Part shown: positions 36,234 through 44,080 of the stretch, piece by piece
How positions within the stretch are numbered: the stretch's first letter is position 1
How the letters are laid out: every line of letters begins with the position of its first letter
Position numbers and translations under genes: made by a program
The notes under the pieces: generated by a model
Database searches by the model: none
Told to the model about the DNA's origin: nothing
What the model saw: the letters and a program-made list of their open reading frames with translations, nothing else
Source: an uncultured Armatimonadota bacterium
GTDB taxonomy: Bacteria > Armatimonadota > Fimbriimonadia > Fimbriimonadales > Fimbriimonadaceae
DNA: 44,080 nt
NCBI GenBank assembly: GCA_903899015.1
Contig: CAIUHP010000086.1
Location: 1 to 44,080, forward strand
Direction: 5' to 3'

Positions 36234-39200
36234 ATGGGCCGTGTCCGCCTTTTACCAAATGCCATGCCCCGAAAGAAGATAGTCTCACCCACGGAAATTA
36301 CGCCGACACCGTCGCCATCGATCACTGAAGCACCCGTTAAGCAAACCAAAAAGAAAGCGAAAGCTGAGCCGAAAGTTGAAATTGTTGTTGCTCCAACTCC
36401 CGAGGTAAAGGCCAAGAAGCCTGCTCAGACAAAAGTTGCCGCACCTAAAGCCGCCAAGGTGGTTGTCGTTGCTCCTCCGGTCGAAGTTGAATCAGTCGTT
36501 GAAACCGTTGTCGTAGAAGCCAAAGCGCCCCAAAAGGCAGCACCAAAGGCAAAGAAGACCGTTTCTCGCCCTACAAAAGCCGCTAAAGTTGCCACACCGG
36601 CCAAAGAAGCCGCACCCGAAGTTTCTGAAAATCACGAGGAAGACCTCATCGTGACCTTCCGCCCTGCTCCAGTTAAGTCTGCAAAGGGCGGCCGTAACCG
36701 ACAAAATCATAAAAACGCGCCAAAGGTCGAGATTCCAGTGGTCGCGGTAGAAGAGGCGCCAGTCGATGTACCGGCAGTTCAGGTTGCCAAACCGAACCAG
36801 AGATCTAAGCAAAAGCCTGGTCGAAACGATAAGAAGACGCCGGTTGAGTCTCCCGCAGTCGTCGTATCTGATGTTCCAGTCCCCGTTTTTTCGGTTGAGG
36901 ATCATCTGCTAGTTGGAGGCGAAGAGCTTCCACTTCCCACTTGGCGTGTCAAGCAAAAACCAGCCCCTAGGAATAACGCGCCTCAGGCAACCACTACAAG
37001 CGAGTCTGAAGCCCCGGAAGCAGCTGGTACCGTCATCAAGCAAAATTCTGAGCGACGCAACCAAAGGAATCGCCGCCAGAGAAGACCGGGAGTCGACGAG
37101 CCGACGACAGCGACGGAGCCTGTAGCCGAAGTCGAAGTCGAAGTCGAAGTCGAAGCAGTCGTACCCGTTTCTGCCGAAGAGCTTCCAAAAGCAAGTTTTC
37201 GCCGAGATCGGGCGGTGCCTCAACCCCCTGTCAAACTCGCAATCCCTATTCCCGAGAATGGCCCCCAGATCGTTATGCGCGACGGCATTCCGACACTGGT
37301 TCGCAATCATCGAGTCTATCCACCGCTCATGTTCTTTGGCAGCCCATCGGACGAAAAGCGAGCGACTACCGTTCTCGATGAGCTGAGAATGGCCTCCGAA
37401 GCGGGAATCCACCTTCACTCATTTCTCATCGATTTTGAAGTGGAACTCGATCAGGTCGACGCTACCGCTGCTTTCGCAGCTTATATGCTTGCCAAGGCTG
37501 TCGAAATTGACCCTGAGTCTCAAGTTGTCTTCCGACTTGTATTCCAAGCAGCCCGGGGATGGCAAGACAAGTATCCAAACGGAAAATACAAGCACGAAGA
37601 TGGTTCGTTAGCAGAGCCAAGTGTTTGCGATGACGAGTTTTGGAACGTTGCCAAGGCATGCCTAGGCAGATTCTCGCGCCAAATGCGCCTTTTGCCACTC
37701 AATGAGCACATCCTTGGCCTCCACCTTGAAAGAGGCGAATGGTTCTTCTCAGAAGGGTTGGGATACGACAACTCCAAGGCTGCCCAAAACCAGTTCCGCG
37801 AGTGGGCGAAAACACGATACAACAACGACGAAGTCACGTTGCGGGCCTCGTGGTTCGACGGTACGGCACGATTTGACAACATTACGATTCCTGAGTACCG
37901 ACACTCGGGATCGGAAGAAGAGAAATTCATTCGGTCGTCGCGAAAGCTTCGACGGTATGTCGACTACCACCTCTTCCTAAGCGATGCAACGGTTCAGCGA
38001 ATTGGAGACCTTGCCTACACCGCTAAGGAAGCAAGTGAAGGGTATTTCTTGGTCGGAGCCAGCTACGGATACACATTCGAGTGGTCTCACCCATCATCGG
38101 GTCACTTATCACTCGGCAAGCTCCTGCGCACACCCGACATCGACTTTATCGCAGGTCCGCCAAGTTACCGTCAGAGAGATCCAGGTGGAAGCGCCGCCTT
38201 CCCTTGCCCGATCGATAGCTTTGCGTTGAATGGCAAGCTTTACATCAGCGAAGAAGATTTCAAGACTTCGCTCAGCACCGGTCACGAACCAGACGATTTC
38301 AACCCAACTCTGAAGACGCCGCAAGCCCTCGAAAGTGCTCACTGGCGCGGAGCCGGTGTTGCGCTGGCTCATGCCAGCGGTATGGCTTGGATGGACCTTT
38401 GGGGCAACGGTTGGCTCAAAACAAACTCCGTTTGGGCGCGAGCTTCAAGGGTTCAAAACGCTTTGATCGACCGAATGCAGATGCCGCTAAGCGATCCGGA
38501 AGTGGCGATCTTCATTGACGAACGTGCTCTGGCCTATTTGGTGGATTCCCACGCATTCGAACTCCTGGTACAAAACGTTCGAGAATCCGTCCTACGAGCC
38601 GGAGTTAGCGCTGCGTTCTACCTCCTGAGCGACCTTGCTCACCGAGAGAAGTTCCCCGACAGCAAACTGTATCTGTTCCTCAACGCGTGGGATATCCGCC
38701 CAGAATTACGAGCCGCGATTAAGTCGCGCTTGCAATGTGACGGAAAGGTATTGTTCTGGCTCTATTCTTCAGGGCTGTTTGACGCGGGCCGAGAGTCATT
38801 GGAACGAGCTCGTGAGGTAACTGGCATCGCATTGAAGCCACAGCCGTTCTATAGCAAGTCGGGCACCACCATCCTCAACCGTAGGCACACACTAAGCGAG
38901 GCGTTCCCAGATAAGAGTTTGATCGGCAGCTCCAAGCTGGAACCAACCTACTTTGCCATTCCAGAAGGAGCAACCGTCCTTGGCGAATACTCACAAACCG
39001 GACTTCCAAGCTTTGTCGTAAAGGAATTTACCGAGGGACCGGCAGAAACACACTGGACAAGTGTTTTCCTCGGCGAGCCGGTTGTAAACGCGGCCCTCAT
39101 CCGAGGGTTAGCTCAGATGGCAGGGGCCCACGTATGGAATTTCCACGAAGATGTGGTTCATGTAAGAGCACCGTTCTGCACGATTCACTGCTCTGGGGCT

Positions 39201-39716
39201 GGACCTCGTGCCATCACCCTTCCAAACAAGTTCTCGGCCTACAACTTATTGACTGATGAATGGGCAGCCGTGGATTCCACCAACCTGCGATTCACGGCAA
39301 CGGATGGATCCACTCACGTTTTCTTAGTCGGTCCAAAGGAGGAGCTCATGCAAATGCTTGAGCGAGACCCAAGTTCAGTCTTGCGAATGGAAGAGTTACC
39401 GGTACGAGATTCAAATGTTCTGGGAGATATTTCGAACTTTGATGTACCGATCATGAAGCTCGACGAGTGGATGGAAGGAAGCGACGGCGACGAGGTTGCC
39501 GAAGATTGGTTCCTTCGACCTCAGCAGATCATTGAAGAACCCGAAACTGAAGAAGATTCGGCTGATAAGATTGGCCGACGCAGAAGACGACGCGGACGTC
39601 CAAATCGTGGTGGTTCAGAGGAAACCGCACACGCTCGACGCGAGCACTCTGGGCAGCCGGTTGCTCCTGAGTTTGGAGACCTTGGCATGAACGTCATGTT
39701 CCGGAAGAGAGAATAG
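36234..39716 (+). CDS. GH42-like glycoside hydrolase with long low-complexity tails
   Basis: 1160 residues from ATG 36234 (ATG 36264, MPRKKIVSP, is equally possible). Residues about 11-335 are low complexity, rich in Lys, Ala, Val, Pro and Glu, and include a (Val-Glu)n run. From about 340 (IVMRDGIPTLVRNHRVYPPL) a TIM-barrel region follows, resembling beta-galactosidase-like GH42 proteins. GLHLERGEWFF plus FREWAKTRY resemble the acid/base region, and GKLYISEEDFKTSLS the nucleophile region. A trimerisation-like domain follows. The last 100 residues are acidic, then very Arg/Gly-rich (RRRRRGRPNRGG). There is no signal peptide. era follows after 5 nt. Confidence 0.75.
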   Translation: MGRVRLLPNAMPRKKIVSPTEITPTPSPSITEAPVKQTKKKAKAEPKVEIVVAPTPEVKAKKPAQTKVAAPKAAKVVVVAPPVEVESVVETVVVEAKAPQKAAPKAKKTVSRPTKAAKVATPAKEAAPEVSENHEEDLIVTFRPAPVKSAKGGRNRQNHKNAPKVEIPVVAVEEAPVDVPAVQVAKPNQRSKQKPGRNDKKTPVESPAVVVSDVPVPVFSVEDHLLVGGEELPLPTWRVKQKPAPRNNAPQATTTSESEAPEAAGTVIKQNSERRNQRNRRQRRPGVDEPTTATEPVAEVEVEVEVEAVVPVSAEELPKASFRRDRAVPQPPVKLAIPIPENGPQIVMRDGIPTLVRNHRVYPPLMFFGSPSDEKRATTVLDELRMASEAGIHLHSFLIDFEVELDQVDATAAFAAYMLAKAVEIDPESQVVFRLVFQAARGWQDKYPNGKYKHEDGSLAEPSVCDDEFWNVAKACLGRFSRQMRLLPLNEHILGLHLERGEWFFSEGLGYDNSKAAQNQFREWAKTRYNNDEVTLRASWFDGTARFDNITIPEYRHSGSEEEKFIRSSRKLRRYVDYHLFLSDATVQRIGDLAYTAKEASEGYFLVGASYGYTFEWSHPSSGHLSLGKLLRTPDIDFIAGPPSYRQRDPGGSAAFPCPIDSFALNGKLYISEEDFKTSLSTGHEPDDFNPTLKTPQALESAHWRGAGVALAHASGMAWMDLWGNGWLKTNSVWARASRVQNALIDRMQMPLSDPEVAIFIDERALAYLVDSHAFELLVQNVRESVLRAGVSAAFYLLSDLAHREKFPDSKLYLFLNAWDIRPELRAAIKSRLQCDGKVLFWLYSSGLFDAGRESLERAREVTGIALKPQPFYSKSGTTILNRRHTLSEAFPDKSLIGSSKLEPTYFAIPEGATVLGEYSQTGLPSFVVKEFTEGPAETHWTSVFLGEPVVNAALIRGLAQMAGAHVWNFHEDVVHVRAPFCTIHCSGAGPRAITLPNKFSAYNLLTDEWAAVDSTNLRFTATDGSTHVFLVGPKEELMQMLERDPSSVLRMEELPVRDSNVLGDISNFDVPIMKLDEWMEGSDGDEVAEDWFLRPQQIIEEPETEEDSADKIGRRRRRRGRPNRGGSEETAHARREHSGQPVAPEFGDLGMNVMFRKRE
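37131..37154 (+). repeat. In-frame hexanucleotide repeat (GTCGAA)4
   Basis: Four perfect copies of GTCGAA encode Val-Glu repeats in the low-complexity N-terminal part of the GH42-like protein. Being a multiple of three, copy-number slippage would change the protein by two residues per unit without a frameshift. Confidence 0.85.
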
Positions 39717-39721
39717 GAACT

Positions 39722-40633
39722 ATGACAGAAGAGAAACAGACTCGTTACCGCTCCGGATACGTTGCGCTTATTGGTAAGCCAAACGTTGGGAAAAGCACGC
39801 TTTTAAACCACATCGTGGGGCAGAAGGTGTCGATCGTCAGCAATAAGCCCCAAACCACGCGACGACGTGTTATTGGAATAGCGACCACCCCGGCGTATCA
39901 AATTGCTTTCATCGATACTCCCGGTATTCACGAGCCCCATACCCAACTTGCTAAGTCGATGATCGAGCAAGCGCGCATGTCACTTGCTGACGCAAACGTG
40001 ATTGTCTTCGTCGCCGACGGGTCTCACCATCCCGGTGAGATGGACAAAGAAGTAAGCAAGCTACTCAAGCGTGAGAGCACGATTCCGGTCATTTTGTGTA
40101 TGAACAAAATGGACCAGTTGAAAGCGGAAGATGTTCAGCGAAACCTGGACGCTTACAAGACGATGCTTGGCATCGAAGATGACGATTTCATGTTGACGAC
40201 GGCCACCCGTGGCCACAACGTTGATCGACTGTTAGAAATCATCGTCAACAAATTGCCCGAGCAGTCTCCAATGTATCCGGAAGATGCCTTTACGGACCAA
40301 TCAAGCCGTTTTCTTGCCGCGGAGATGGTGCGAGAGCAGATCTTAATCGCTACTCGACAAGAGATTCCTCACGCAGTTGCCGTAATGGTGGATGAATGGG
40401 ATGAGCAAGAAGGTTTGACTCGCATCGGTGCTTCAATCTTGGTTGAGAAATCAAGTCAACGAGCAATCATCATTGGCAAGCAGGGCCAATTCTTGAAAGC
40501 GATCGGAACCGACGCTCGGATCGAAATTGAAAAAATGCTCGGCCACAAGGTTTTCCTCCAACTCCATGTACGCGTGAGCGAAGACTGGAGAATGAGCCCT
40601 CGCGTTCTGCGTGAATTGGAGTACGGCGAGTGA
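39722..40633 (+). CDS. era: GTPase Era
   Basis: Era binds the 3' end of 16S rRNA and aids small-subunit maturation. The 303-residue protein has G1 GKPNVGKSTLLNHIVGQ, G2 NKPQTTRRRVIGI, G3 DTPGIHEPHTQL, G4 NKMDQL and a C-terminal KH domain with IIGKQGQFLKAIGTDARIEI. Normal length. Its TGA overlaps the next start as GTGA, and it follows the GH42-like gene by 5 nt, so the three genes are probably one operon. Confidence 0.97.
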   Translation: MTEEKQTRYRSGYVALIGKPNVGKSTLLNHIVGQKVSIVSNKPQTTRRRVIGIATTPAYQIAFIDTPGIHEPHTQLAKSMIEQARMSLADANVIVFVADGSHHPGEMDKEVSKLLKRESTIPVILCMNKMDQLKAEDVQRNLDAYKTMLGIEDDDFMLTTATRGHNVDRLLEIIVNKLPEQSPMYPEDAFTDQSSRFLAAEMVREQILIATRQEIPHAVAVMVDEWDEQEGLTRIGASILVEKSSQRAIIIGKQGQFLKAIGTDARIEIEKMLGHKVFLQLHVRVSEDWRMSPRVLRELEYGE

Positions 40634-41556
40634 CCGCTGGGGTGCCTGACTTCTTTGGTCAGCTTCTTGAAGCTGACTCAGAAATCGCGCTTCCAACTCT
40701 TGAAATCGACCTGCCCCAAAAAAGCGGGCCCCTCCACAAAGTCGAATATGTCATCGAATTTGTAGGTCAACGTTCGGTGCTTGCAGGCGCGGCCGCTCAA
40801 CTCTTGGCTCCAGACTGGTATCAGGCCTTGGGTCACCCTCAAGTGTTTGCGATGCGTCCTGCCGACTTGCACTGGCAACGTTTAACACCCGCGATTGATG
40901 GATCTTACGATTCGTTGGCACTCTCCTGGCCGCTACTGGGTCCAAAAGGGGCAATCACACAGGCGTCTGCCAAGCATCTCCTTGACCTTGCGGAACAGTT
41001 TGGCCCCTATATTCAGCGACGCTCGATGGCGATGCCGGTGCCTCGAGAAATAGACGCCTACGTTCGAGTCTTGAAACAGACCAAGGAAAACCTCGATATC
41101 GGATTTGAGATTTCGGTCATGTCAAGTAAAGCTTCCTTCAGTGAAAAGGATCTCTGGATTGAGTGTGCGCGTCTCGGTCTAACTTTTTCTCCAGTAGGTT
41201 CGTTTGACTGGCGGACTCCAAGTCACGCCTTCCCTCTTTTCAGCGTCACGCCGATCGGTGAGACCGACGCTTTCTCGTTGGCCAACGTCCAAAGAGGTGT
41301 CAGCCACGTTGGTGTCACGCTAGGCTTCAGCGTTCCACTTTGCGCGGCACCTTTGCAAGCCGCAGAGGGTGCTTTCTACACCGCCGACCATATCGCTCGA
41401 CAACTTGGAGGCAGGATCCTCGATGACAGTGATCGGGAAGTCACCGAAGCCATCAAGCAGGACCTGTATGCGAGCATTAGGCAAGCAGTTGGTTTGTTCG
41501 CACAAGTAGGAATGATGACCGGTTCGGCAGAAACTGAAGCACTCTTTGCGGCTTAA
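40630..41556 (+). CDS. ZipA C-terminal-domain-like protein
   Basis: 308 residues from GTG 40630, overlapping the era stop by 4 nt. The second half (about 155-300) follows the pattern of the ZipA FtsZ-binding domain: ENLDIGFEISVMS, then LGLTFSPVGSFDWRT, then SHVGVTLGFSVPLCAA, then a helix with HIARQLGGRILDDSDREVTE and a final helix. The first half is soluble and not recognised. Unlike ZipA of gammaproteobacteria there is no N-terminal membrane segment. A role in division is inference from a remembered pattern, not an alignment. Confidence 0.6.
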   Translation: MTAGVPDFFGQLLEADSEIALPTLEIDLPQKSGPLHKVEYVIEFVGQRSVLAGAAAQLLAPDWYQALGHPQVFAMRPADLHWQRLTPAIDGSYDSLALSWPLLGPKGAITQASAKHLLDLAEQFGPYIQRRSMAMPVPREIDAYVRVLKQTKENLDIGFEISVMSSKASFSEKDLWIECARLGLTFSPVGSFDWRTPSHAFPLFSVTPIGETDAFSLANVQRGVSHVGVTLGFSVPLCAAPLQAAEGAFYTADHIARQLGGRILDDSDREVTEAIKQDLYASIRQAVGLFAQVGMMTGSAETEALFAA

Positions 41557-43156: not shown

Positions 43157-43273
43157 GGCTTTTTCATGGGTCCAATAGGACGCATGAGACGAGCGTCCAT
43201 ATTTGTTCGTTGTAGATGATTTCAACGTGGAGATAATCTCCAAAATCTCCGCTTTTTTTGCAGGTGGGTTATG
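43157..43273. other. 3' flank of GH5 with weak hairpin
   Basis: GGACGC (43178-43183) and GCGTCC (43193-43198) form a 6-bp stem followed by ATATTTGTT, a possible weak terminator for the GH5 gene. The rest of this stretch leads into the tandem repeat array. Confidence 0.4.
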
Positions 43274-44080
43274 CCCCGGTTTCGTTGTCGGAAGGATGAA
43301 TCTCCGTGGATCGGCTTCGGGCTTTGCGAGTAAAACCCGTCGAGTGCAAACCTCGCGAATCCTTGTATACCGGGGATGGTTCTTGCCCCGGTTTCGCTAT
43401 CGGAAGGATGAATCTCCGTAGATTGGCTTCGGACTTTGCGAGTAAAACCCGTCGAGCGCAAACCTCGCGAATCCTTGTATACCGGGGATGGTTCTTGCCC
43501 CAGTTTCGCTATCGGAAGGATGAATCTCTGTAGATAGGCTTCGGGCTTTGCGAGTAAATCCGGAGTGCGCAAACCTCGCGATTACCTGTAGACCGGGGAT
43601 GGTTTGTGCCCCAGTTTCGCTTTCGGGAGGCTGAATCCCCGTAGTTAAGCTTCGGCCGTTTCGAGTAAAACCGGGGCACAACCCATCCCCGGTCTACAGG
43701 ATTTTGGACGTTCCGTGCCGCTATTTGGAGCGAATGACTCTTCCCAATTTCGCTATCGGAAGGATGAATCTCCGTAGATAGGCATCGGCCGTTACGAATA
43801 AAACCGGGGCACAACCCATCCCCGGTCTACAGGATTTTGGACGTTCCGGGCTGCTACTTGGAGCGAAAGCCTCACCCCGGTTTTGCTTTCGGAAGGATGA
43901 ATCTTCGTAAATTGGATTCGGACTTTGCGAGCAAAAAAGTCGAGCGCAAACCTCGCGAATCCTTGTATACCGGGGATGGTTCTTGCCCCAGTTTCGCTAT
44001 CGGAAGGATGAATCTCTGTAGATAGGCTTCGGGCTTTGCGAGTAAATACGGAGTGCGCAAACCTCGCGATTACCTGTAGA
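43274..44080. repeat. Non-coding tandem repeat array with 111-112-bp and 133-bp units
   Basis: Units start at 43274, 43386, 43498, 43609, 43742, 43875 and 43986; the last is cut by the window end. Units 1-3 and 6-7 are 111-112 bp (type A); units 4-5 are 133 bp (type B). Unit 6 is most like unit 2 and unit 7 like unit 3, a higher-order period of about 489 bp. All carry the kernel CTATCGGAAGGATGAATCTC or close variants. Unit length is not a multiple of three, so long frames here are not genes. Each unit holds an ACCGGGG/CCCCGGT-type stem. Confidence 0.9.

Follow-up and report, generated by a model that had tools for sequence, protein, structure and literature searches.

The window analyzed here, a stretch of 44,080 nucleotides from an uncultured Armatimonadota bacterium of the order Fimbriimonadales, encodes a protein in which a core predicted to adopt a GH42 fold carries long charged tails at both ends. 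This tailed GH42-fold protein is a conserved single-copy protein of genomes from the same order: a match was present in 41/41 of them, one per genome, except for one genome in which the match lies in two pieces. Some relatives within the order have lost one or both putative catalytic glutamates and keep the tails. We tentatively favor the view that the protein acts inside the cell as a scaffold for which a GH42 core serves as the base, and that its enzyme activity would be ancestral and sometimes dispensable; we consider this view plausible, if short of probable.

Gene, Neighborhood, and Distribution

The reading frame is open without interruption from 36234 to 39716 on the forward strand. The protein probably begins at 36264 (MPRKK...) and not at 36234, because the N-tails of most same-order relatives (43/54) can likewise begin with M[PAR][RKST]; the gene would thus span 36264–39716 (+). 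A frameshift joining two separate genes, an artifact that would have refuted the original prediction, was ruled out, the relatives sharing the same open frame, similar in length and free of stops. Inspection of the window protein shows no N-terminal hydrophobic segment, in agreement with the earlier claim that it has no signal peptide.

The gene for the GTPase Era (39722–40633, +; confirmed by NCBIfam) begins 5 bases downstream of this frame and is followed by a gene whose product matches the ZipA C-terminal domain (40630–41556, +; PF04354, E-value 7.7e-10). Separately, 112- and 133-base tandem repeats (86–88% matches) are found at 43272–43909, downstream of a GH5 gene. The association with era is real and holds for the window as well as for most same-order loci, era following the tailed gene at 49/54 of the latter. 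Because the figure is 0/31 outside the order, the linkage characterizes one clade rather than the tailed protein itself. One of the five same-order loci without era is at a contig edge, and the others belong to families f4 and f2. Related proteins unlinked to era and lacking the tails had been named beforehand as a finding that would speak against the prediction: unlinked relatives do exist, yet their tails persist. No conserved neighbors of the tailed gene were seen outside the order.

The fact that era adjoins the tailed gene across most of the order is one argument for an RNA-decay or ribosome-assembly scaffold, whose tails would play the part that the RNase E tail has in other organisms. 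In those same-order genomes that were inspected, RNase E/G lacks a long tail, and there are precedents for such an organization: motifs of the RNase E tail assemble partners in Pseudomonadota, according to one report (PMC11964227), and the GWW motif of Caulobacter PNPase and degradosome assembly are the subject of another (PMC3376730). However, the parallel with our protein is one of analogy, and the era linkage is missing outside one clade, so that we regard this explanation as unlikely.

The same architecture was sought in related genomes, as had been proposed, and was found not only in the order but also in further Armatimonadota families. Of 201 genomes drawn from the phylum, 151 gave a match, a count that includes tail-less paralogs. 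A scan of named genomes returned matches from Armatimonadota or from unnamed bacteria, the closest named relative being a Fimbriimonas MAG; the sole exception was one record with an archaeal title. This record, which bears the title Methanoregulaceae archaeon, contains a copy with 64% identity and is likely mislabeled or a mixed bin. The literature searches made found no paper on the tailed GH42 architecture.

Predicted Fold of the Core and Its Putative Catalytic Glutamates

The core (37224–39443, +; 740 residues) was modeled by AlphaFold2 with high confidence (pLDDT 93.2, pTM 0.93) as a complete three-domain GH42 fold, which matches GH42 structures end to end (Foldseek/VIA-align; about 576–605 residues aligned, Z 20.7–23.0). 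GH5 and GH35 chains scored in the same range but over shorter aligned stretches, and GH164 did so with most of the core aligned, a likeness to be expected within clan GH-A. At the sequence level, the window protein alone scored 13.5 bits (E-value 0.045) against the Pfam GH42 model (PF02449), below its curated cut-off of 21, and found no match in a sequence search of the PDB, whereas a 76-row family profile retrieved GH42 beta-galactosidases from the PDB (best E-value 0.0006). The glycosidase-like core of the original prediction is thus upheld by the model, the structure matches, and the family profile, although the Pfam search it had proposed remained below threshold. Because of this subthreshold score, we describe the window protein, on the basis of its model, as a GH42-fold relative and not as an assigned GH42 member.

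The putative acid/base glutamate (37737–37739, +) is residue 502 counted from the ATG at 36234 (model residue 172) and lies just after strand beta4; the putative nucleophile (38250–38252, +) is residue 673 (model residue 343) and lies in strand beta7. Alignment and secondary structure put both candidates, E502 and E673, where catalytic glutamates are looked for, one at the end of beta4 and the other at the end of beta7. A structure prediction of residues 340–1050 had been suggested as a check on these two residues; alignment and model both indicate that the two are in place.

Among 74 loci at least 45% identical and covering both columns, 61 keep both putative glutamates, as do 57/57 loci below 45% identity, a group that includes family f2. 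This retention argues that catalysis matters in most members, and it weakens the scaffold reading. It also speaks in favor of an ordinary active intracellular glycosidase, whose tails would only place or solubilize it (e.g., at an anionic surface) and whose glutamate-less relatives would be decaying copies. The remaining 13/74 loci, all from the same order, lack one glutamate or both, both being absent in 8; on the tree, loss of both forces at least three changes (quick method, midpoint root). Several of the glutamate-less rows carry long end branches, as decay would predict. In contrast, in a clade of six rows without either glutamate, the end branches are short to moderate in length, and the tails, the terminal motif, and the era linkage all persist. 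This speaks against decay, in the course of which a gene should lose these three features. We therefore hold the plain glycosidase to be possible but somewhat doubtful.

The loss of catalysis may itself be incomplete. One of the eight relatives without both glutamates has an aspartate at the nucleophile position, and several loss cases keep an adjacent glutamate (in SLED), so that the latter may use a shifted nucleophile. All 13 glutamate-losing relatives nevertheless end in an FR[KR] motif, and the persistence of tails and repeated motif in glutamate-less proteins suggests a second, nonenzymatic job. The earlier proposal that the core was recruited for another role has accordingly gained in likelihood.

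Charged Tails and Their Repeated Motif

The N-tail of the window protein (36264–37223, +; about 320 residues) is of low complexity, charged, and rich in K, A, P, E, V, and R; the C-tail (39444–39713, +; about 90 residues) is Arg-rich and ends in MNVMFRKRE. Long charged tails at both ends, as first described, are borne out by the relatives, with median lengths within and outside the order of 279 and 308 residues for the N-tail and 102 and 145 for the C-tail, and a similar composition in both groups, rich in A, P, E, and R. The finer labels held less well: "histone-like" fits the N-tail in composition and in nothing beyond it, and the "RGG-like" C-tail has a single Arg run, GRRRRRRGRPNRGG, and no RGG repeats.

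A motif of roughly the form acidic-(hydrophobic-x)2-[FW]-R recurs in the tails and is confined to same-order proteins. Besides the terminal copy, the window protein contains copies around EDLIVTFRPA (36639–36668), EELPLPTWRVK (36921–36953), and EELPKASFRR (37176–37205), all on the forward strand and with approximate spans. In 55 same-order loci, the motif was counted 169 times (mean 27.4 and maximum 42 in 300 shuffles), against 2 times in 30 loci outside the order (shuffled mean 8.1). As the expression was written after the tails had been inspected and related rows inflate the count, the comparison with shuffled tails should be read as indicative and not as a probability; the difference between inside and outside carries more weight. 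A copy also occupies the extreme C-terminus at 53/54 same-order loci and at 0/31 outside.

Other proteins sharing the motif were sought with patterns that cover only some of its variants. In six genomes, the exact terminal pattern retrieved the GH protein and one match in no listed reading frame; a looser one gave further matches which, taken as a group, were no more frequent than in the backward control. The internal pattern, in six genomes, retrieved the GH protein in four, along with one match within an open stretch of 53 residues and another that a stop interrupts.

The motif is also what suggests a cell-division factor, in which N-tail copies would imitate the C-terminal peptide of FtsZ and compete for its binding proteins. 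FtsZ of the searched genomes ends in DESDLDIPAFIREHRQRG or LDELDLDIPTFLRRQRGG, resembling tail copies such as DDLDLPIPTFRSRE, and the ZipA C-terminal domain, encoded after era in the window, binds FtsZ in E. coli. However, a ZipA-like protein was found in 8/30 Armatimonadota genomes searched and not in the other 22, many of them motif-bearing, which rules it out as a general partner; moreover, proline is absent from most motif copies, including most terminal ones, and the spacing to the arginine is off by one residue. By sequence, the likeness to the FtsZ peptide appears to be a resemblance only, and we consider such mimicry very unlikely. As to FtsZ itself, the searched f1, f3, and f5 genomes have two genes each, and f2 and the genomes outside the order one each.

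A Possible Scaffold and Its Relation to Known Systems

The favored reading of the protein as a scaffold draws on its presence throughout the order and in tailed relatives beyond it, on the confident core model, on the excess of tail motifs and their near-constant terminal copy, and on the FR[KR] ends of the glutamate-losing relatives. GH42 enzymes are usually trimeric. A trimeric core would display three N-tails and three C-tails per particle, the Arg-rich stretches of which could bind an anionic polymer (RNA, the ribosome, or another), while the motif, with its alternating hydrophobic residues and final [FW]R, might join a partner protein as an added beta-strand. The glycosidase activity would be ancestral; the window protein has probably retained it, and some relatives would have lost it and be left with the scaffold role only. 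A broader version, in which a phylum-wide scaffold arose from a glycosidase fold, recruits its partner through the strand-like motif, and became a pure pseudoenzyme more than once, seems to us rather unlikely. A conserved single-copy protein combining a sugar-hydrolase fold with scaffold-like tails would be uncommon among bacteria as an example of an enzyme turned organizer, and it would come from a phylum of which few proteins have been studied; the glutamate-less relatives provide a natural test of which part of the protein is needed.

Two known systems come closest. RNase E likewise joins a folded enzyme core to a long tail of low complexity in which Arg-rich stretches and short motifs occur, but its core is unrelated and its motifs differ; the likeness is one of analogy. 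GH42 beta-galactosidases (e.g., 1kwg and 3tts) share the predicted fold across the whole core, and the putative glutamates after beta4 and in beta7 are located as in clan GH-A enzymes. The window protein is, however, only about 11–15% identical to these beta-galactosidases, and the tailed family differs from them by its long charged tails at both ends and by those of its members without putative catalytic glutamates.
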